This document shows, one piece after another, positions 3,568-63,650 of a DNA stretch of 64,000 nt. The first letter of the stretch is position 1; every line of letters starts with the position of its first letter. This stretch comes from Branchiostoma lanceolatum. Lineage: Eukaryota; Chordata; Leptocardii; Amphioxiformes; Branchiostomatidae. The stretch is taken from positions 14,172,552-14,236,551 of the forward strand of contig NC_089740.1 of NCBI RefSeq assembly GCF_035083965.1, read 5' to 3'. Below the pieces are notes generated by a model, which was not told where the DNA came from, made no database searches, and saw nothing but the letters and a program-made list of their open reading frames with translations. The translations under genes were made by a program, and so were the position numbers.

Positions 3568-4757
3568 GGCGGCACCAAAGGGCAGGGAGACCAGGAGAGG
3601 AAGAAGAAGGAGACCATCTTAGACCTGTCCAAGTACCTGGACAAACCCATCAGGGTCAAGTTCCATGGAGGGAGGGAAGGTATCATGCTTTTTACCAGCT
3701 TTGTATAACTACAAGCCCGTGGCGCAAGCGGTAACACAACCCCGCTGCTTTGCCATCTGGATCAAAGTCCGTGGATCCTGGGGCCCGAGTTCAATTCTAG
3801 GGGCGGCTCAGCTCGGACATGTTGTAAGGGATTGCATTCATCATTTCGGATGGTGATGTAAAGCCAGTGGCCCCGTGTATGAGGGAGCTCCGGGCATAAG
3901 CCCCTAGCGTCAAACTTCTGCACGTAAAAGAACCCAACATACTTCTCGAGGAGAGTAGGGGTGACCCGGTGTACTTGGTCAAAAAAATGGGTGCCTTGGC
4001 AAAGCCGCATTGCACTACCAGCAGCTACTTGAAAAAGTGTCATGCTTCACCTAAATTGAGGATGACTGCTTTACTTTTTAAGTAAAGTAATGGTTTGAAC
4101 TGTGCATGCATAAGGTAAAAGTAAAAAAGTTAAAGGTAGTCTTGTATCCTTTTTGAGGCTGTAGCGGCAGTGGGTTGTTATCCACTGTGTCTAGGACACG
4201 GTATTGGAAGGTGGAGCCCAACCCCTCTCCTTCTACCGACTTTTACCTCCCCAACCAAAGTCAGGTAGCTGTTAGCAAACTAACAAACGAATATTCTGAC
4301 GCAAACCCAATGTTCTTTGTTTCTTCTTCAGCAAGTGGCGTTTTGAAGGGATATGACCCACTACTCAACTTGGTGTTGGACAACACAACAGAATACCAAA
4401 GAGGTAAGTAAAGTCTAATCCATAGACTCCTAAAATGGTAACAGATGTAAACTTTCTTAAAGTGCCATTTGCAATGACACAATGTCTAGCCAGGAATGCA
4501 CCCATAACCTCTAGATGTTCATGTCTTCTAGCTTAGCCCCACAGCTTTTTGACGCCACCAAAATGATTTAAGGCCTTTTTTTTACCTATACCTTTTGACT
4601 CTTCCCTCTCCCCCCAGACCCAGACGACCCGTTCAAGCTGACAGAAGACACGCGGCAGCTCGGGCTGGTGGTGTGTCGCGGCACGTCGGTGGTCCTCATC
4701 TGTCCTCAGGATGGCATGGAGGCCATCCCCAACCCTTTTGTACAACAGGAGGGATAG
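3568..4757 (+). CDS. LSM7: LSM7, U6 snRNA-associated Sm-like protein (exons 2-4)
   Basis: LSm7 is a subunit of the heptameric LSm1-7 (cytoplasmic mRNA decapping) and LSm2-8 (nuclear U6 snRNA 3'-end binding) rings. Three coding exons are visible, 3568-3679, 4332-4403 and 4618-4757. All have good AG/GT borders, and phases 0, 1 and 1 join in frame to 107 codons plus TAG. The product has a KKKETILDLSKYLDK N-terminal helix, the Sm1 motif with KFHGGRE and DPLLNLVLD, a loop, and the Sm2 motif with GLVVCRGTSVVLICPQDG. It ends at the family-typical IPNPFVQQEG. Length matches animal LSM7 once a tiny first exon is added; that exon was not located. The first intron contains a tRNA-derived SINE. The last exon's final codons have been tandemly amplified downstream. 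Confidence 0.95.
3712..4075 (+). mobile_element. tRNA-derived SINE in LSM7 intron
   Basis: The 5' end looks like a degenerate tRNA gene: an A-box-like TGGCGCAAGCGGTAAC and a B-box-like CGAGTTCAATTC about 60 bp later. A non-tRNA body follows, ending in a simple tail. It lies entirely within the intron between LSM7 exons at 3679 and 4332. It is not a functional tRNA because the acceptor and anticodon stems do not close. Confidence 0.65.
4117..4275 (+). mobile_element. Dispersed repeat, AAGGTAGTC family (copy 1)
   Basis: A segment beginning AAAGGTAGTCTTGTATCC, with TTTTTGAGGC, ATTGGAAGGTGGA and related blocks. It recurs at 50787-50960 in the Arkadia gene, and its first 30 bases recur directly before the 5S-like SINE at 24713. 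Probably a SINE family; no RNA-gene head was recognised. Confidence 0.5.
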
Positions 4758-20187: not shown

Positions 20188-21150
20188 CCTGTTCTATTTC
20201 GAACACCTCCCTCAAAAACAGGGCTTGACGGACACAAAAATGGCCGTCGCGGCTAGGTCGTCAATAATGCCACTGACTTCGGTTTAGCTTTTAGACTCTG
20301 AAACCCTTTCAGAGCGGGCCAAATAAGAATGCTTTGGCTTCTTTGTTGACGACTGTATCCACCGAGTAGAGCTGTTTGACAGTTTGTGTCGGGAGCGGAT
20401 GTAGTTATGGTTAGAGCGTTATGTTTTCGGTCAATGTTGAAGCGGTAGGCGCCGTGTAGCATTACCTTGTCGATGGGCATCAGCGTTCGGGTTTTGACAA
20501 CCAGCCCATGCACGTGTAAAACAGGGTGCGTATATCTGTGACAGGGTTAGCCTCCGTTGCAGTCCTTTTCCCCGCAGCGTGTTTTTTTTTCAATTTTTTT
20601 TGGGGGGGGGGGGCGCCACGTATCTGCTTGGGATCCCGTATCCGCCGTGCCTCTGTGTCCGCTATAGACCCTGTGTCCGCTGCTGGGTCTATAGCGGACA
20701 CAGAGGCACGGCGGATACGGGATCCCAAGCAGATACGTGGCGCCCCCCCCCCCCCCAAAAAAAATTGAAAAAAAAACACGCTGCGGGGAAAAGGACTGCA
20801 ACGGAGGCTAGACAGGGTTCCCACTGTATTGGCTGCATGCATAACAGCTGCATGATCTTTAGTAACAGAATTAAAATGCCCTTCTTTTACTTAACCAGTA
20901 TCACACACCAGTAATGAAAGAGGCGAAACTCTACGCTAGCGTAGTAGTTGACAATGTGGTACAGGCTTCCTCTGCTTGAGTGTCCGAGCTATTTTCTGTT
21001 TCAATTCTATTTTGTCCTGAGCATGCATGCAACCAATACAGTGGAAAACCTGTCACAGATATACGTAATCTGCTTTACACGTGCCATTTCTGTCCTACCA
21101 GCGCGGTTTTTTTGACGGAGGTGTTCTAAATAGAACAGGGGGTTCTATAC
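20188..21150. mobile_element. Candidate DNA transposon bounded by inverted CCCCCTGTTCTATTT ends
   Basis: CCCCCTGTTCTATTTCGAAC plus ACCTCC at about 20189 is mirrored by GGAGGTGTTCTAAATAGAAC plus AGGGGG at about 21117-21143. The roughly 950 bp between carries no intact transposase ORF and contains a nested foldback at 20549-20810. Boundaries and class are inferred. Confidence 0.5.
20549..20810. mobile_element. Foldback MITE with AGCCTCCGTTGCAGTCC ends
   Basis: Long near-perfect palindrome of 262 bp with homopolymer T/G and C/A tracts in the arms and GTGTCCGCTATAGACCC near the centre. It is flanked by direct repeats GACAGGGTT at 20540-20548 and 20811-20819. ORFs reading the same peptide on both strands are palindrome artefacts. 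The same terminal sequence CTGCAACGGAGGCTA occurs alone at 63766-63780. Confidence 0.85.
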
Positions 21151-21881: not shown

Positions 21882-21942
21882 CCGACCGCCATGAAACCTT
21901 TGAACACAAGGACAGGCTTCACAAAGGTTTCATGGCGGTCGG
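21882..21942. repeat. 21-bp-arm inverted repeat
   Basis: CCGACCGCCATGAAACCTTTG and its exact complement are separated by 19 bp, about 350 bp upstream of the HypX-like start codon. Foldback-like; no known regulatory motif. Confidence 0.85.
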
Positions 21943-22290
21943 CTTGTATCATTTCCAAATTGCTATAATTGTGAATCTGAAAACATCCTTTAAAAGCTGA
22001 CACTTTCCCACATCCGATTGGCGAGTTTCATTTGCCAGATTTAGTCGTTAAGGCAAACTATAGAAAGCGATTTGTCGAGCATGGCTGATTCGAATCTAAG
22101 TTTCAGAGAGGTCGATTGGTCGGGGTGCTACAGTACTTGGTGGTAGCGAGTTCCACTCTACGATAGTTCCAGGGAAAGGTCCCATAGTTCTAGGTAACAT
22201 AATGAACTTATATGCGCTCCGCCAAAATATTCGCTGTTAAGCTTTACCCGTTTAACTGCCGCTACAGCCCTGATTTCTCTCTTGAACAAG

Positions 22291-23039
22291 ATGATTAGAA
22301 GCGCCACCATGATAAACCGCGTCGCCTGGCGGTCCATGATGTCCCTGCAGAAAGCTCCTCGTGCAGTGACGTCATCTCACCAAGGATCACAGAAGCACGG
22401 ATCATCTTCCCAGCAACCATTTCGGCCGGTTTCCCAGCATCCATCTCAACAGGCGTCCCAGCAGCCACTGCAGCAGGTATCCCAGCTGCCTCAGGAGTTC
22501 TCCCCTCTGCCGTGGGTCGACTTTGCCGCCCCTGGCCCGGCAAAAATGGCGGGAAACCCGCTGAAGGTCACCTTCCTGTGCGACTCGTTCAACGGGCTGT
22601 CCCAGCGGCTGTACCTGGAGCTGACGTCACGCGGCCATCACGTGACCGTGCACGAGGACGCACGTGGCGAGGCGATGACGCGGGCGGTGGAGGCGGACCG
22701 GCCGGACCTGGTGCTGTGCCCGTTCCAGACCCGCCGGGTCCCGGCCGGGCTCTACAACAACCCCGCCCGGCCTGTTCTCATCGTACATCCGGGCATCCCG
22801 GGGGACCGGGGACCCTCATCCATCGACTGGGCGCTGAAGGTTGGGCTTGTTTACTTTCGACAGACATACAAACAAACAAACAAACAAAAATAGAAAACAA
22901 ACTAACATGTGAAACCCTCCTCTCTCTCTCTCTCTCTGTGAGAGAGACAGGGACCGAGCAAGGTGGAAAGAGTAATGCGTTTGTGTGTTTGTTTGTGTGT
23001 TTTTTGTGAGTGTTTGTGCGTGCGTGCGTGCGTGTGTGA

Positions 23040-23081
<42 letters not shown>

Positions 23082-26000
23082 GTGTGTGTATGTGTGTGTG
23101 CGTGTGCGTGTGTATGTGCATGTGTGCGCGTTCATGCTAGAGTGGCGCAAGAAATAAAAGTGAAAAATGTCCGGTCAGAATTCTGTGTCCATATGATGAT
23201 GATGTTGACCTCAACTTAACTTTACATCCAACACTGAAGAATACTTACCATTCCGTTGTCTCCGTTTCTACAATGTAGGAGGGCGCCACCGAGTGGGGAG
23301 TGACGGTACTGCAAGCTGACGATGAAATGGACGCAGGGGACATTTGGGCCACCTGCAAGTTTCCTGTGAACCGCCAGGCGGCCAAGTCCAGCCTGTACAG
23401 CAAGGAGGTGACACAAGCGGCGGTTCTCTCTGTTCTGAAGGCCATAGACGCCTGGGATCAAGGCGTACCGCCAACACCGCTGGACTATGGCCACCCTGAC
23501 GTATGTACAACATTAGGGGAGGGACCACCAAGTAAGGCTACCATTGGCTAATCTCCAAGCAGATCCACACCGGGCGAGAAAATCGTATGTGCTAGCCAGA
23601 GAAGGTCCATTCAGCTAGAGAGGGTCCAATAAGCCCGGGCTTATTCGACCCTCTCTGGCTGACTGGACCTTCTCTGGCTAGCACATACGATTTTCGCGCC
23701 CGGTGTGGATCTGCTTGGAGATTAACCATTGGCTAGTGCCATCATAAAAACACACATAAAATTATAGATACAGTTACGGTAAATTACTTCACACTTCCAG
23801 CAACACGCAAGCACAAGTCACCAAGAGTTAGATACCTAGAGAGACAATCGACTCTTACAACTGAACCAAGCGTAACTCAGCACCAAGAGACCACGTCTAG
23901 CGATATAATAGTTAAACAAGGACAAGAAGGACAACAACAACAAATTACAAAAGCTTACTTTTGCCTTACAGAATAGGAACATTCACCCCCCTCTTATTCA
24001 AGGTAGAACTCTATCAGTAACAGCCATTTGTATTTCTTCCAGGTGTGCGGCGAGCTGAAGCGGAAGCTGACGGCGGCGGACCGGCAGGTGGACTGGGCGC
24101 AGCCGGCGGAGGACGTGGCGCGGGCCGTGAGGGCCTGCGACTCCCAGCCGGGCGCGCTGGGCGGGCTCCGGGTAGCCGTGCAAGGTAAGGAACAGTCTTC
24201 TGTACACATTGTCATACAAAGTCAGAGAGTGATGATAGACTCAGCCAATCAGATACTCCTCCTCCTGTTGTTGTTGGGAAAACTACCAGCCAATCAGGTC
24301 GCTTCCTACGGTCAGGAGGCAACATGATTGGCCTTCAAGAACAGGCCTAGGTGCGCGAAAGGACATCAGAAAAAAAGGCAACATCGTCTTGCTGATTATC
24401 ATCTGTTTTCTGTAGTCAATAAATTTTTTTAACAAAACAAATCTAATGACAGGGCACCTGCAGAAGCGCGAGTTTGTGCTGTTCGGCGCATGCGTGGAAG
24501 GCGATCCTGACATGGTGCGGCGCCTGAAGAAGGAGCAGGCGTATGACGTCATCCCTGGTGACGTCATCGGGCGGAGGAACGGCGCTGTCCTGGTGGCCTG
24601 TGGAAAAGACACCGCCGCCTGGATCTCTCATCTTAAGGTGAGGGATTGTTCATTGTTGCTCTAGTTTGGGGAGGGGGCATTGGATCCAGCGTAAACTAAT
24701 AAAGATGGTAAAAAGGGTAAAGGTAGTCCCATGGCCTTTTTGAGAATTCAAAGAATGAAGCTACGGCCGCGTGGCGCGTTGGATACACCCGATCCCTCGA
24801 TCTCGGAAGTTAAGCAACGCGCGGTCCGGACAGTGCTTGGATGGGGGACCAACCAAGGACGTCCGGATTGCTGTAGCCTCACGAAAGCTTTCCACGAAAT
24901 CGTCTTCCGGGAGGGACGTAAAACGGGGGTCCCGTGCTCGTGGAGGTGCCTCGAACACGTTAAACAGCCTCATTACCCTACACATTGGGTACCTGCCTGT
25001 GGCACTGGCTGCAAATACACCTGATATTATTATTATTATTATTATAAGTGAAACTAAACATAGACACAAAGATTTGCACACAAGTTAACAACTAATTATA
25101 CATATATATATAGTGGTCTCTTCCTGAAAATGTTTCATTTGCACAACACTCCCCGTGTGTATCAATGTACCCCCAATGCTGTTGAGTGTTGCCGTAACCC
25201 CTACAACCCCCATTTTTTTTTCCAGGCCTCCCCCAAGAAATCCAGTCTGAAGCTTCCCGCCACGTCTATCCTGCCTTCAGGTGACGTCACAGCCCTTCCC
25301 ATCACCCCCTGCGAGCCGCTTCCTTACGGCGCCAGGCCCAAGACGTTCCAAGACGTCTGGACGACGCGCCAAGACGGCGTCTGCTACGTGCACTTCGACT
25401 TCTACAACGGCGCGATGAGCACGGATCAGTGCCGGCGGCTGGAGCAGGTTCTCTTGTCTGTCGACAAGTATCCCGACTGCTCAGTTGTCGTATTGATGGG
25501 CGGGTAAGCATTAAACTTATCATCTAACTTATAAACTTCACTAAGTCCATGTTGATTTGATTATATGGATGACATCCACGCGCGCATCAATTTTCGTCAA
25601 TTCCCCCCCCCCCCAAAATGCGACAGTTCCACAAGTGCAGGTGTGGAGCAAGTATGTATCTGTTGTGTATTATGTGATTGTAAACCGTGCAGCAATTCAG
25701 CAGTGGCTGCCATTACACGGGTAAATTCTGACAAATAAACAATACACTTTCATTTACCAACATCTTAACACAGATTGAAGCACGTTGAGAATGCCTTGAA
25801 ATTGCCATCAAATGAGAACTTGTCTAACTTGCCCATGTACAGGTATAACTTCTTCAGCAACGGCATTCACCTCAACGTCATCGAGAACTCCGAATGTGCC
25901 GCCACCGAATCCTGGGCTAACATCACCGCCATCGATGACGTAGTGAAGGCGATATTCCGCATGCGCAGTAAGGTGACGGTGGCGGCGCTTCAGGGGAACG

Positions 26001-27498
26001 CGGGAGCGGGAGGGGTCATGATGGCGCTCGCTGCAGACCAGGTTCAGTAACGTGAAAGCTAATCCTTGTCAGTACTGAACATTCTGGAAAAAAAAGCAAC
26101 TTTCGAAAATTTAATTTACATCATAGGAGGTAGGTATCGGAATTCGTTGAACCGGGTTGAACCGTCTTGTGGCCAAAGTTTAGTCCGAGCGTGACCCGAA
26201 AATTACATTGATACACACTGGATGTGCAGTGCAAATGAGCGGTAGCCGAAGAAACCAGCTGCAGACCGTCCGTCGGCGAAGCCAATGAGCGAGCTCTTCG
26301 CGGATCTAAGGAGTGCTAACTGACAGCTATCAAAAGGATGACCGGAAGTACAGTCCGCGCTCACGGGGCATTTCAGGGTAGCTTGGTCCCTTGCTCAACA
26401 ACAATTCCGATGCCTATCGCCCATGGTTACACACATGGTTACACACATGGTTACACACATGGTCTATGCATTCTTCAGACTATTGACCAGACCCAAGTCG
26501 AATTGAATCGGGAATTTGATACACCCACACTGTAAATTGATCTTTGTGGGGACTTAATTTTGAAGAGGGAAAGGAAAAATTTGCAATGTTCTAAGTTCGC
26601 GGTTGAAACAGCTACACGTGTTGAGCATAACGATATAACAAATATTTAACAATTGACATTCCTGGTATGGTACTTCTCCCCTTCCAGGTTTGGAGCCACG
26701 CAGGCGTGGTGCTGAACCCGCACTATCGCAAGATGGCGCTTTTCGGGTCCGAGTACTGGACATACTCCCTGCCCCGCAGGGTGGGAAACCCCGCAGCAGA
26801 GGAACTGACCAATGGGCTGCAGCCGCTGCTGGCTACGGAGGCCCGGGATATTGGTGAGTTTGCTTTGTTTCCTCCATGGAAATGGGTTGGTCTTAGGCAT
26901 GGATTGGTCTTGGCATGGGTTGGTCTTGGCATGGGTTGGTCTTGGGCATGGGTTGGTCTAGATCTTGGCATGGGTTGGTCTGCAGCTGCATGGGTTGGTC
27001 TGGGGTATGGGTTGGTCTGGGGTATTGGTCTTCTGTATGGGTTGGTCTTGGGCATGGGTGTGTCTGCAGCACGGGTGTGTTTGGGGCATGGGTGTGTCTG
27101 GAGAATGGGTGTGAGGGCGCATGGGTGTGTTTGGGACATGGGTGTGTCATGGGGCATGGGTATTTTTGGAACATGGGTTAGTCTGGGACATGGGTTGGTC
27201 GGGGATGGGAAAAAGGCAAACCCATGTGGTTAAACACTCCTCGCCTTCGATTCTTCTTACTCTAGGAATGATAGATGACGTCATTGGGTACAATGCGGAA
27301 GAGCTGAACGCGCAGATCCGACTGAAGTGTCTGCGCCTGCAGGCCGACTCTCGCGAGATTCTCCGAGGGAAGAAATCATCGGCGTCATCCCTCTGGACCA
27401 CGCTGGAAAATCACCGTCGCAAAGAGCTCGCAAACATGCAGCAGTGCTTCAACAACAACGTGTACCATGACCTGAGGCAGAAGTTCGTGTACCACTAG
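22291..27498 (+). CDS. HypX/HoxX-like protein: formyltransferase + enoyl-CoA hydratase fold, probable mitochondrial presequence
   Basis: Eight exons join in frame to 657 residues: 22291-22839, 23279-23500, 24043-24184, 24453-24637, 25226-25503, 25843-26041, 26688-26853, 27266-27498. Residues 1-85 are Arg/Ser/Gln-rich, almost free of acids at the start (MIRSATMINRVAWRSMMS), and look like a mitochondrial presequence. From about 88 comes an N-terminal formyltransferase-like domain with HPGIPGDRGPSSIDWA (166-181, catalytic-type His) and DEMDAGDIWA (Asp201). From about 367 comes a crotonase-fold domain with GNAGAGG (510-516), VLNPHY and GSEYWTY (545-551). These are bacterial HypX hallmarks; HypX makes CO from formyl-tetrahydrofolate via formyl-CoA for [NiFe]-hydrogenase maturation. 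Animal function is unknown. Two in-frame ATGs exist (22291, 22309); the second has a perfect GCCACC context. One donor (after 26041, GTTCAG) is weak. Confidence 0.92.
22979..23125 (+). repeat. (GT)n microsatellite in HypX intron 1
   Basis: GT/GTTT/GTGC-rich simple sequence preceded by a (CT)n run at 22920. His/Thr-repeat ORFs on the minus strand are artefacts. Confidence 0.95.
23550..23724. mobile_element. Foldback MITE, TAATCTCCAAGCAGAT family
   Basis: A 175-bp palindrome in HypX intron 2 with ends AATCTCCAAGCAGATCCAC and complement. It is flanked by an exact 10-bp direct repeat ACCATTGGCT (23540-23549 and 23725-23734). It shares the TCTCCAAGCAGA terminus with 12376, 17506 and 57541. Internal arms differ between copies, so the family is united by its ends and target duplication. 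Confidence 0.9.
24760..25048 (+). mobile_element. 5S rRNA-headed SINE in HypX intron 4
   Basis: Positions 24760-24878 align end to end with 5S rRNA (119 nt): GCTACGGCC start, CCCGAT..CTCGATCTCGGAAGTTAAG, box-C-like GTGCTTGGATGGGGGACC, and GCTGTAGCC end. Several stem positions have diverged. The body (GAGGGACGTAAAACGGGGGT, GAGGTGCCTCGAACACGTTA, CAGCCTCATTACC) and an (ATT)n tail follow. Matches the SINE3-type architecture; not a functional 5S gene. Confidence 0.85.
26424..26462 (+). repeat. 13-bp tandem repeat
   Basis: Three-plus copies of CATGGTTACACA(CA), in the HypX intron before exon 7. Creates a YTHGYTHG ORF that is not coding. Confidence 0.85.
26884..27212 (+). repeat. GGCATGGGTTGGTCT minisatellite in last HypX intron
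   Basis: About 20 variants of a 15-18-bp unit (GCATGGGTTGGTCTTG, later GGCATGGGTGTGTCTG), filling most of the intron between exons ending 26853 and starting 27266. Long open frames on both strands (Gly/Trp/Val-rich and Pro/His/Thr-rich) come from the repeat period. Confidence 0.9.
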
Positions 27499-35589: not shown

Positions 35590-51321
<15,732 letters not shown>

Positions 51322-59960: not shown

Positions 59961-62900
59961 TGGTGCAGGGGAGCAAGGTCATCATATCCTGCAAAAGATC
60001 ATCATAAAAGAGCGTTGGTTTTAAAACTTTCAGAATCCCACCGTGTACATAGGAATGGTTTATTGTGAGGGCTTTCTGACGGGTCAATGTTTTGTATACT
60101 GACTTCTTTTCGTTTTCCCAAGCATTTGGACCACACAATTGTGCAAACACCGATGGTACTAAATGTAGCTGAGGTTGTTCAACTTCCATACCCTTTCGTG
60201 TATGTGTTTAGTGCTAAGCAGAGAAGCAGTATGCATTTAGTATGAATTTGTCGAGGAATTGAACTCACCGCAAGACCAAAGCGCGCGCGGGCTCTCTACG
60301 TACCCACTAGGCTATCTGCGCTGGAATATGTCCAATCCTTCAATGGAATGGCTATGGGTAGTTGAACTAGTAGAAATTGGACTTATGGGTTGAGTTATCT
60401 GCGAAGAAGTTGGTAGCAAATGATAAACCCGCTGGCCGGCTAACTTTCTCTGGCAAATTGTTCAACCTACTGTAAATGCATTTAAGTTCTCGTGGTTTTA
60501 CCTTCGCGGTAGTTTTCAGTTTGCGTTTTGGACAATAGTAGACAAGAGGGTAGGAGGGCAAAAACTTCGCTATGGTTTCAAGTTCACGGCAAAGAGCTTA
60601 CCGCAAAACCCGCGAACATAAAAGTTTTAAAACCACCGCGAACATTTCTGAATTTACAGTATTTGGACAATTTTTACTATTTTCAGCTACACATGGAGTC
60701 CAGTAGAGACTAAAAAAAGGGGGGCAAGTCATAAAGGTAACGATGTCCCCATCCAAGCCATGCTTGAAAAGTATGAAGACGTCTTGAGAAACGTGTCCCA
60801 CCTGTACGGTGAACCTTGACTCGAGGAGCAGGAGCTCGAACATCTCGGGGTCTCCGTCCAGGTTGTTGAGACGGGCGAACTCCTTCCCGTCCACTCGGGA
60901 CATTTCTCCCTTCACCATTTGGAACACTTCGAACAGACGGGCGTTCCTGTGACAATAGACCGGACAAATGTGTAAGAAGTGGTAAATGTACAGTCAAATC
61001 CATCTATCTAGTGACCACTCAAGGGACTGGTCACAGTGGAGAGCTCGAGACGGCCACTATGTAGACAGAATTGGTAAAACCGCAAGTTGTGTCAATGGAA
61101 AAACAAAATATCACTAAGGACCCCGAAAGTGGCCACAATGGACAAGTGGTCTTAATGCAGAGGTAGTTACTAGTACATCTTTGCATTACATAGTTTGTAT
61201 TGCAGTGAATATACTGCGAGTACAAATAAAATTATCACTTAATGCACGACCGTAAAAAATTCGTGTCGTATAAACTGCTTGAAATGAGGCAAAAACTACT
61301 AAAGATCTACTAAAAAAGACACATTTGATAGAAAAACTTTACTCACCCTGATACGGCAGAAGTGGGCTCTAGTAGGCTGAGCCTTCGGTTCAGTTCGTTG
61401 TCAGAAGTCACCATACGCGAGCGCTGTATTATCCTCTCGTTCTGTTGGCTGTCCTCCACGAACTGCAGTACCCAGCTCAACCGGTAGGGCCACTGCTCGG
61501 CCAGAACCACCCACGACGCCACCTGTCGTGGGCTGAGGAACTGCAGATGTCTTCTGTGCTTCAGAACTTGGACGGTCATTCTCAGCACGTGGTAGATGCT
61601 GGCGATGTGATGCGCGTTGCCCTTGACGTAAAACATGATGTCATTGAAGTCGTCATCATCGTCATCTTGAACTATGATCTGAATGACGTCACCGAGGAAG
61701 TCAATGTTGAGCTCTCCGTTTACTTTCTTTGTTCCCACGTTCTTTGGTAACAATCCATTCATAGCCTTGGCAAGGTCGTCAGGGCCGCCATCTTTGAATT
61801 TATAGGCGCCATCTTGGATCTGCTGACCGCCATCTCGGATCTGGTGGCCGCCATCTTGGATCTGGTGGCTGCCATCTTGGATCTGGTGGCCGCCATCTTG
61901 GATCTGGTGGCCGCCATCTTGGATCTGGTGGCCGCCATCTTGGATCCCGTGGACGCCATTTTGGATCTGAAGGTCACGCGGCGCATCCGGTAGCGCTGAC
62001 AGGCACTTCCTAGACCATCGCCCTTGACTGTCGATCAGGAGCCTCTGACGCGCCTTGCTCCCCGCGTAGAAGGAGATCTTGCCAGGTGCCCTGGAGGAGG
62101 GGTACTCGCTGGTGATGATCCCGGCCGGGTTCCCCCGCACCACCGTGCGGAGCAGTTCCCTCCGGTTCCCCACGCTCGGCTCGGGCAGACACACGGGGAC
62201 GTCAACAATCCTCTTCAAGTACTCGTATCTACAACAGAAGCAGTCATGGTTACAAACTATTGTTATCAACTTATGGTCCAGCAAGGGATCAGAACATAAT
62301 CGAAAAGACGTGAAAGAACAAGCATTACAGCAAAGTGGAAAGGGTTCGGGTATTCAAAACTTCCCGTGCAAATGTCTTTTGTCATTGTCACTGAACAATA
62401 CAGACGCATACGTCGACGAAAATGGAACTTTAGGTCAAAAGATACAGAATACAAAAGTTACTCAAGCAACGGGATACATTTTGTAACGGTCAGATGTTTC
62501 AGTTTGCATAGTTACTGTTAGTTGATACTTTTATACAAAACATACCCGCTTGAATTGTTGATCATGATGTCCGTGAGGCGGCTCTCCAGGCAGTTCACCA
62601 CGATCTTCGGGTCCATGGCGACGATGGAGACGAAGTTCGCCCCCTTGTCCGACAGCAGGATGTTCATGGCCTCTAGAACACCCACCACGCGGTCGCCAGG
62701 GCAACAGTCCAGGTCGTCCACCACGATGATGACTCGGTATTGGACCCCGGTCACGTGTTCCAAGAACCGCAGGAGTGACGTCACTGTCTGGACCTCCGCC
62801 TTGACCTCTGACATGAAGCCCAGCTGATCGGCGAAGTCCGGTTTCTTCATCTGACTCTGCAGGGCGTCCTTCTGAGACTTGACCAGATTCTTGGCGACGT

Positions 62901-63111
62901 TGAAGAAGTTCTTGATATTGACGACGACGCCCAGTCCCATGACCTGCGATACCGTAGCGATGAGTGCGGTAATCTGCTGCGTTCCGTCCACCAAGACGAA
63001 GATGCCGACGAGCGAAGAAAGAATGACTACTAGTACCGCAGCCAGAAGAAACTTGAACCAGGCACATTGAAGAAGGGACTTCTTCCCACCACCCCAACCC
63101 TCGACTTGGCC
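59896..63111 (-). CDS. KAP-family P-loop NTPase, NKPD1-like (5' part outside window)
   Basis: Minus-strand exons 63111-62546, 62228-61347, 60946-60802 and 59988-59896 (TGA) join in phase to 561 residues. The first exon has two hydrophobic stretches (FKFLLAAVLVVILSSLVGIF; then ALIATVSQVMGLGVVV). The Walker B segment YRVIIVVDDLDCCPGDRVVG and NFVSIVAMDPKIVVNCLESR follow, then YLKRIVDVPVCLPEPS. KAP NTPases (Kidins220, NKPD1, bacterial PifA) insert membrane helices between Walker A and B, so Walker A should lie upstream, beyond 63111 and probably outside the window. They are thought to organise membrane-associated complexes. The second exon carries an in-frame GGHQIQD repeat and an acidic QDDDDDDFND run. 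The C-terminal exon reads DMMTLLPCTINLDWSIQRRI. Which KAP paralogue this is cannot be settled here. Confidence 0.85.
60251..60324 (-). mobile_element. tRNA-like SINE head (minus strand)
   Basis: The minus strand reads GCGCAGATAGCCTAGTGGGT (A-box-like) and GCGGTGAGTTCAATTCCTCG (B-box-like), in an intron of the KAP gene. The body is poorly defined. Confidence 0.55.
60468..60661. mobile_element. TACTGTAAATGCATTTAAG MITE, copy 3
   Basis: About 194 bp, ends TACTGTAAATGCATTTAAG and GAATTTACAGTA, internal ACCACCGCGAACATTTCTG. Lies in the KAP gene intron. More diverged than copies 1 and 2. Confidence 0.8.
60990..61160. mobile_element. Degraded AGTCAAAC-type element
   Basis: CAGTCAAATCCATCTATCTA, GTGACCACTCAAGG, GGCCACAATGGACAAGTGGTC resemble a decayed version of the AGTCAAACCTG/GGTGGTCGCC element at 36001. 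Confidence 0.4.
61795..61970 (-). repeat. 21-bp coding minisatellite in the KAP gene
   Basis: About eight copies of a 21-bp unit, plus-strand consensus CCGCCATCTTGGATCTGGTGG, inside exon 62228-61347. On the coding strand it encodes GGHQIQD heptads, the last ones degenerate (GGQQIQD, GAYKFKDGG). The period keeps the frame open in more than one frame. Confidence 0.95.
62455..62515. mobile_element. End fragment of the CTCAAGCAACTGGATA family
   Basis: AAGTTACTCAAGCAACGGGA, TACATTTTGTAACGGTCAGA then TGTTTCAG match the first 60 bp of 28321-28690. The opposite end is absent. Confidence 0.5.
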
Positions 63112-63650
63112 CTGGAATGAAAGGATAGAACTTATGAAAATCAGAACAGACAGAAAGCTACAGCAGCCTGGAAGTTTCGGTGACCGTTTGTCACCTTACT
63201 CAAGGCAATGGTAAATTATTCTACCTCACACTGCAGCTAGGTGTCGCTGCTGCAATGTTAAGAATGCGATCCTAGATGTGACTGAATCAATATCCACCCT
63301 CATCAGAATTCATGGCTGAATGGATTGTCAGATCAATACTGCCTCCTTAATCCATAGAGTGCATCTTGATCTACTGTCATCTCTTTCTATCACCTTGGCC
63401 CCGTCCCAGTCTTATACACCGTTGTTTCTTGCAAATCAGGCCACAATTGGTGATTTTAACACACTTCACCAAAAGTTGTATAACATAGACAAGAATTTAA
63501 CAGCGGTGTTCCCAAAAGACAGTGCTAGTATCTTGGTATGCAGCAATCTATAAATGGAGACATCGGTGACGAGGTCCACGTAACGTCTACACATCTACAC
63601 AAGCTGCTGACGAGTACACAAAAACCCGTGACGTGTACGCACCTTGATGA
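63112..63650. other. Intron of the KAP gene, no supported exon
   Basis: No minus-strand segment here encodes a Walker A (GxxGxGKT/S) motif. An ORF at 63320-63553 (plus) has no support. Confidence 0.4.

Follow-up and report, generated by a model that had tools for sequence, protein, structure and literature searches.

A stretch of 64,000 nucleotides of Branchiostoma lanceolatum DNA (hereafter the window) carries a HypX-type gene on the forward strand at 22291-27498. To our knowledge, animals have no [NiFe]-hydrogenase. As judged from sequence comparison, the protein is probably a hydrogenase-independent enzyme that would convert 10-formyl-THF by way of formyl-CoA into CO, perhaps in mitochondria, and the CO may act as a signal or local effector.

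The exon joins were set by splice rules and homology. Eight exons give 657 codons followed by TAG without any internal stop, and the seven introns, of 268-646 bp, are all GT-AG with compatible exon phases. All exons lie on the forward strand. Exon 1 (22291..22839) holds the leader and the start of the formyltransferase module, with Met1 at 22291, Met7 at 22309 and the His166 codon at 22786-22788. The Asp201 codon (23330-23332) falls in exon 2 (23279..23500). Exon 3 (24043..24184) encodes part of the C-terminal region of the formyltransferase and exon 4 (24453..24637) its C-terminal, OB-like region, and exon 5 (25226..25503) covers the linker and then the start of the crotonase-fold module. The crotonase module continues through exon 6 (25843..26041), which contains GNAGAGG, and exon 7 (26688..26853), with the codons of Tyr538 (26724-26726), Glu547 (26751-26753) and Leu569 at the place of Arg448 (26817-26819). 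It ends in exon 8 (27266..27498) with the stop codon. The preliminary description had proposed eight in-phase exons bearing the HypX signature motifs. The exon borders, phases and open frame bear this out, and every motif quoted there was found in the translation, namely HPGIPGDRGPSSIDWA, DAGDIWA, GNAGAGG, VLNPHY and GSEYWTY.

The genes flanking HypX in the 64-kb window are LSM7 and Arkadia, not hyp or hydrogenase genes. Upstream, an LSM7 exon (4599..4754, forward strand) was matched by phmmer to the LSm7 chain 3jcr_7 at E 6.3e-25, the best of the LSm7 matches, and three further LSm7 sequences match it at E 1.5e-11 to 1.9e-11; we take 3jcr to be a human complex. Downstream, an Arkadia/RNF111-like RING exon (51175..51318, forward strand) matches Arkadia 2kiz_A (phmmer, E 9.8e-19), which is presumably an animal gene. 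Intron 4 contains a 5S-rRNA-like element (24759..24879, forward strand; Rfam RF00001, 60.3 bits, E 3.7e-10), probably a 5S-derived SINE. These features bear on the idea that the gene is bacterial contamination or a dead copy, which is barely credible. It is true that the closest relatives found are bacterial, with a best identity of 46.5%, and that the exon GC of the gene is 62% against 43% for the whole window. However, the gene has seven GT-AG introns, and contamination is very unlikely because the LSM7 and Arkadia exons flank the gene and one intron holds the 5S-like element. The argument against contamination first made from the introns is thus upheld. A dead copy is opposed by the 657 codons without a stop and by the conserved catalytic residues. 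Both contamination and a pseudogene were therefore rejected on the introns, the intronic element, the flanking genes and the open frame. Among other features of the window, inverted repeats were seen by eye at about 20590-20790, 21885-21943 and 23560-23730, one of them about 350 bp ahead of the first ATG, another inside intron 2. A degenerate tandem repeat around 'gcatgggttggtct' was likewise seen by eye in intron 7 (about 26880-27200). A partial gene on the reverse strand (62521-63195) encodes a KAP-family P-loop NTPase domain (E 7.3e-10).

The Pfam domains of the protein are, in one chain, PF00551 and PF02911 (formyltransferase N and C), then PF00378 (enoyl-CoA hydratase). Its closest solved relative is Aquifex aeolicus HypX (6J0P), with a phmmer match over both modules (residues 88-655, E 3.6e-116), so that the two-module HypX gene initially described is confirmed. 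The next family, 10-formyl-THF dehydrogenase, matches the first module only (phmmer, E 3.9e-14). An identity as ALDH1L was discarded: the hydrolase module is followed by a crotonase domain and gives way to no aldehyde dehydrogenase Pfam match. ALDH1L1 and ALDH1L2 share with animal HypX the formyltransferase-fold first module, at that same E value, and the same folate. They continue with an acyl-carrier domain and a C-terminal aldehyde dehydrogenase domain, whereas the last domain of animal HypX is the crotonase domain. An identity as Fmt was discarded as well, TIGR00460 scoring 60.5 bits against an NCBIfam cut-off of 201.5.

A scan of bacterial and archaeal genomes gave 269 relatives, and the best 80 of them were analysed. 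Because only the best 80 of 269 were kept, this 80-locus set is biased to animal-like HypX. The tree has 93 rows, made up of these 80 loci (best 80 of 269), 11 plasmid rows, Aquifex and the animal protein. The animal protein keeps 96 of 103 near-invariant columns, meaning those identical in 97% or more of the 80 bacterial loci (best 80 of 269). In the available text of PMC6802093, formyl transfer is proposed to depend on His74, Asp80 and Asp109 (Aquifex numbering) and decarbonylation on Tyr416 and Glu426, and mutating the matches of the latter two abolished the function of Ralstonia HypX. All five residues are present in 92 of 92 bacterial rows. Loss of catalytic residues, raised in the preliminary description, was looked for in the alignment and none is lost: the animal counterparts are His166, Asp172, Asp201, Tyr538 and Glu547. 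Aquifex Asn306, Ser194, Gln195, Gln15 and Ala392 are likewise matched. The CoA contact Arg131 is replaced by Ser in the animal protein, whereas 86 of 92 bacterial rows have Arg there; a HypX variant lacking Arg131 and three other contacts retained CoA binding, according to the same part of PMC6802093. Compared with the HypX/HoxX proteins that serve the maturation of [NiFe]-hydrogenases (Aquifex 6J0P, Cupriavidus pHG1), the animal protein is alike in module order, the five catalytic residues and most CoA contacts. It differs in having no Arg448 and a Tyr416-Glu426 loop one residue shorter, and in its N-terminal extension, its introns and a gene context free of hydrogenase genes.

The N-terminal extension (residues 1-85, 22291..22545, forward strand) is missing from most bacterial HypX, and the HypX phmmer match starts at residue 88. 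It was first described as Arg/Ser-rich and acid-free. The second part stands, as residues 1-68 contain no Asp or Glu, but residues 1-80, with 5 Arg, 2 Lys, 14 Ser and 14 Gln, are Ser/Gln-rich with a cationic start rather than Arg-rich. The Met7 ATG at 22309 reads GCCACCATG, which we take to be the Kozak consensus, and Met7 may be the true start. The 24 residues from Met7 have a charge of +4, no acid and a hydrophobic moment of 0.58, which 112 of 5000 shuffles reach; from Met1, the charge is +5 and the moment is reached in 243 of 5000. An equally cationic, acid-free N-terminus was found in only one of the 80 bacterial HypX (best 80 of 269). On modest statistics, the cationic, amphipathic and acid-free N-terminus suggests a possible mitochondrial presequence and import.

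A result that is new here is that the bacterial HypX rows analysed split into a hyp-linked clade with Arg448 (54 rows) and 38 other rows that, like the animal protein, have no Arg448. In the 93-row tree, the hydrogenase clade of 54 rows has an SH-aLRT of 100; leaving out four rows that were long or odd (two Nocardia, Kitasatospora and Sulfurimonas) gave 99. Among the best 80 of 269, hyp genes are in view at 44 of the 48 genome loci of this clade and none of the 48 genomes is without HypD. At the other 32 genome loci of the same best 80, hyp genes are in view at one and out of view at 31, and 19 of the 32 are in genomes without HypD. HypD was present in 26 of 40 and 35 of 40 genomes, which leaves 19 of 80 without a HypD match (best 80 of 269); judged by their titles, six of these are MAGs, possibly incomplete, and the other 13 are not MAGs. 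Neighbours were called from the longest ORFs, which is weak in high-GC Lysobacter, where three such ORFs have no Pfam match; HypX itself was missed at 5 of 80 loci and recovered by tblastn.

At the position of Arg448, all 54 hydrogenase-clade rows have Arg and none of the 38 other bacterial rows does; the animal has Leu569. The beta7-beta8 loop (Tyr416-Glu426) has its full length in all 54 hydrogenase-clade rows and is one residue shorter in the animal. In the 38 non-hydrogenase rows, it is one residue shorter in 25, of full length in 12 and two residues shorter in one; a short loop peculiar to the animal was thus ruled out. In the simulations described in the available part of PMC6802093, the loop (419-423) pushes Arg448 outward while the cavity widens, and CO is expected to exit through the opening neighbouring Arg448. 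Because Arg448 and this loop differ between the two sides of the family, we infer that the CO exit differs as well. Arg448 with a full loop as a mark of hydrogenase HypX was found here and is not a published definition. As a strict mark it was weakened, since Sulfurimonas and Kitasatospora plasmid HypX adjoin hydrogenase genes without having Arg448, and Arg448 occurs, with no hyp match within 18-19 kb, in 8 of another 20 regions, these eight coming from Methylococcales genomes. Five of these eight regions were placed in a tree, all outside the hydrogenase clade. The animal protein resembles the non-hydrogenase bacterial HypX (Paenibacillus, Peribacillus, Lysobacter, Methylococcales, Coleofasciculus, gammaproteobacteria) in its lack of Arg448 and its short loop. 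These two features fit the non-hydrogenase side, and either could arise more than once.

Several further neighbourhoods were observed on the bacterial side. In Bacillus sp. V3B (L045 8406-9977), HypX is preceded by a methyl-accepting chemotaxis gene, with 23 bp between the two. On a plasmid of the endofungal Mycetohabitans (L085 6013-12425), the genes that come after HypX encode an acyltransferase, an acyl carrier protein, an acyl-CoA dehydrogenase and an amino acid-ACP ligase. A single Nocardia strain carries divergent HypX genes on two plasmids (L086 5995-7668 and L092 4992-6692), and the stretches shown contain no annotated hydrogenase gene. Three Methylococcales HypX (L128 9477-11636, L132 8513-10675, L147 8429-10591) are about 720 aa long with a C-terminal extension, which matches hemerythrin in L128 (E 1.9e-6) and no Pfam family in L132. 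A DJ-1/PfpI-AraC regulator lies just 5' of HypX in L005 (383-1393), L077 (2849-3901), L128 (8247-9314), L136 (10211-11299) and L147 (7246-8292), and both domains were found in 5 of 5 such upstream genes scanned. A search of viral contigs for HypX with six peptide patterns matched no stretch.

The preliminary description had called for a phylogeny, and this was done with bacterial rows and one animal row. The animal row falls outside the hydrogenase clade in 3 of 3 trees. However, joining that clade was not rejected by the AU test, either with all 54 hydrogenase-clade rows (p 0.473) or, in the third tree, with 32 of 38 hydrogenase-side rows (p 0.313). The animal branch is long and its neighbours shift with the row set, from Nocardia to Lysobacter and then to marine gammaproteobacteria. 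Naming a bacterial donor by phylogeny was abandoned, as the neighbours change and the AU tests reject neither placement. The long branch also speaks for a rival reading, in which the animal protein is a changed acyl- or formyl-transfer enzyme whose product is formyl-CoA or some other formylated thiol or amine, and which no longer releases CO. The replacement of Arg131 and Arg448, the shortened loop and the acyl-carrier-protein genes adjoining Mycetohabitans HypX point the same way. Such a change is nevertheless quite improbable: the matches of Tyr416 and Glu426, whose mutation is fatal to the Ralstonia enzyme in the available text of PMC6802093, are kept, and the short loop is common to 25 of the 38 bacterial non-hydrogenase rows. 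A hydrogenase-independent CO-making enzyme is the reading that we prefer.

The neighbours of non-hydrogenase HypX bear on the use of the CO. The membrane domain MHYT is CO-responsive in the regulator CoxC, according to the available part of PMC11347149, which also describes O2 as competing with CO at this domain, discusses NO for other MHYT proteins and names bacteria and fungi, and no others, as its bearers. An MHYT gene is in view at 10 of the 32 non-hydrogenase loci and at 0 of 48 on the hydrogenase side (best 80 of 269), leaving 22 of the 32 non-hydrogenase loci without one; the Fisher p of 4e-5 is only a rough guide because the rows are related. No MHYT gene was found in the 11 plasmid regions, which are shorter, nor among the 10 ORFs scanned in the animal window. 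MHYT sensor genes of several domain forms adjoin HypX or are at most one gene away, both in this set and in the further sampling described below (L001 11852-13861, L003 11736-14159, L008 12785-14911, L014 2828-5326, L032 3234-6029, L036 473-3193, L046 167-925, L077 6905-8842, L080 9146-9916 and L135 11287-13305). In Paenibacillus, Peribacillus and Bacillus, an MHYT-(PAS)-GGDEF-EAL gene lies 36-55 bp downstream of HypX. In Methylococcales, a response-regulator-like gene (below the Pfam cut-off) is followed by an MHYT-PAS-histidine kinase (3 of 4 kinases scanned). Coleofasciculus has an MHYT-PAS-GAF-kinase upstream of HypX, and in two gammaproteobacteria the upstream gene, 51-75 bp away, encodes a stand-alone MHYT protein. 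In six genomes (G008, G014, G026, G032, G036 and G080), all whole-genome MHYT matches are the HypX-neighbour gene itself. In whole-genome searches, MHYT turned up in 19 of the 32 non-hydrogenase genomes against 3 of the 18 hydrogenase-side genomes searched (18 of 48).

The pairing was followed into related genomes. HypX was found at E 1e-100 or better in 66 of 251 Methylococcales genomes. Pro stands at 448 in 12 of the 30 best of these 66 loci, and 11 of these carry MHYT in the 1.5-kb flank; three of the 11 (G008, G026, G032) were in the first set and eight are new genomes. The twelfth keeps the response-regulator-like gene and has no MHYT within 18 kb. The other 18 of the 30 best showed no MHYT in their short flanks. 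In the Paenibacillaceae-like family of G001, HypX occurs in 3 of 104 genomes: besides G001 itself, a second has an HD-domain gene between HypX and MHYT-GGDEF-EAL, and the third has no MHYT within 18 kb of HypX. In the order of G003, HypX occurs in 1 of 299 genomes, which is G003 itself. In the phylum of G036, it occurs in 2 of 339, the second with HypD and HypE adjoining.

HypX and the neighbouring MHYT gene are thus likely, from their gene order, to be a pair of CO maker and CO sensor without hydrogenase genes. As some bacterial HypX stands beside CO-sensor-type genes and in genomes without HypD, the neighbourhood is a precedent, on the genomic evidence, for HypX-made CO as a useful product outside hydrogenase maturation. 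The preliminary description held that the animal enzyme must serve another use than hydrogenase maturation. This has gained weight because 19 of 80 relatives' genomes have no HypD match and 10 of 80 loci have an MHYT gene (best 80 of 269).

The CO might also have no signalling role. ALDH1L1 and ALDH1L2 are 10-formyl-THF dehydrogenases that release CO2, and beside them HypX could act as a one-carbon overflow valve, freeing THF from 10-formyl-THF without NADP+ and giving off CO as a by-product. The same active sites would support this, as would the resemblance of the first module to 10-formyl-THF dehydrogenase (E 3.9e-14). We consider it unlikely, however, since sensor or regulator genes lie near bacterial HypX at many loci and animals already possess enzymes regenerating THF from 10-formyl-THF.

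For the preferred CO-making enzyme, the following mechanism is proposed. The first module would move the formyl group of 10-formyl-THF onto a protein-held CoA with the help of His166, Asp172 and Asp201. The formyl-CoA arm would then swing over to the crotonase-fold module, whose Tyr538 and Glu547 would break formyl-CoA down to CO and CoA. CO may leave through the gap between the domains, and THF would be recycled. The presumed site of action is the mitochondria, and the bacterial HypX-MHYT neighbours suggest that the CO may serve as a signal or local effector. The chemistry is taken from papers on bacterial HypX, and we infer that the animal protein does the same. Direct proof of the HypX reaction was still missing at the time of PMC6802093, as far as its available text goes; later work, as covered in the available part of the review PMC12134894, has bacterial HypX transferring formyl to CoA and releasing CO. 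Counting for the proposal are the HypX match over both modules, the five catalytic residues, the 96 of 103 columns and the absence of Arg448. Counting against it are the change of Arg131 to Ser, the long branch, the AU tests that did not reject the hydrogenase clade, the 22 of 32 loci without MHYT and the link of MHYT to NO and O2.

The HypX family itself is already known as a hydrogenase maturation factor (PMC6802093 and PMC12134894, in their available parts), and only in this role was HypX met in the literature surveyed. No report of an animal HypX or of a HypX-MHYT pair was found by title and abstract start among the non-subscription papers surveyed, and database entries for animal HypX may well exist. 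A wider proposal is tentative, though well worth considering: some animals may make CO purposely from folate one-carbon units in mitochondria through HypX and without haem oxygenase, and in several bacterial lineages HypX may be the CO-making half of a maker-MHYT sensor pair, hydrogenase maturation being one of the family's branches. Haem oxygenase is an enzymatic CO source in animals, and its substrate and fold differ from those of HypX. Animal HypX would be another such source. If the proposal is true, a conserved animal HypX would give animals a second enzymatic source of CO, one linked to folate instead of haem. The occurrence of HypX beside MHYT kinases, MHYT c-di-GMP enzymes or stand-alone MHYT proteins likewise yields the testable claim that some bacteria use CO as an internal signal. 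Purified proteins and simple gene deletions would allow both the animal and the bacterial claim to be put to the test.
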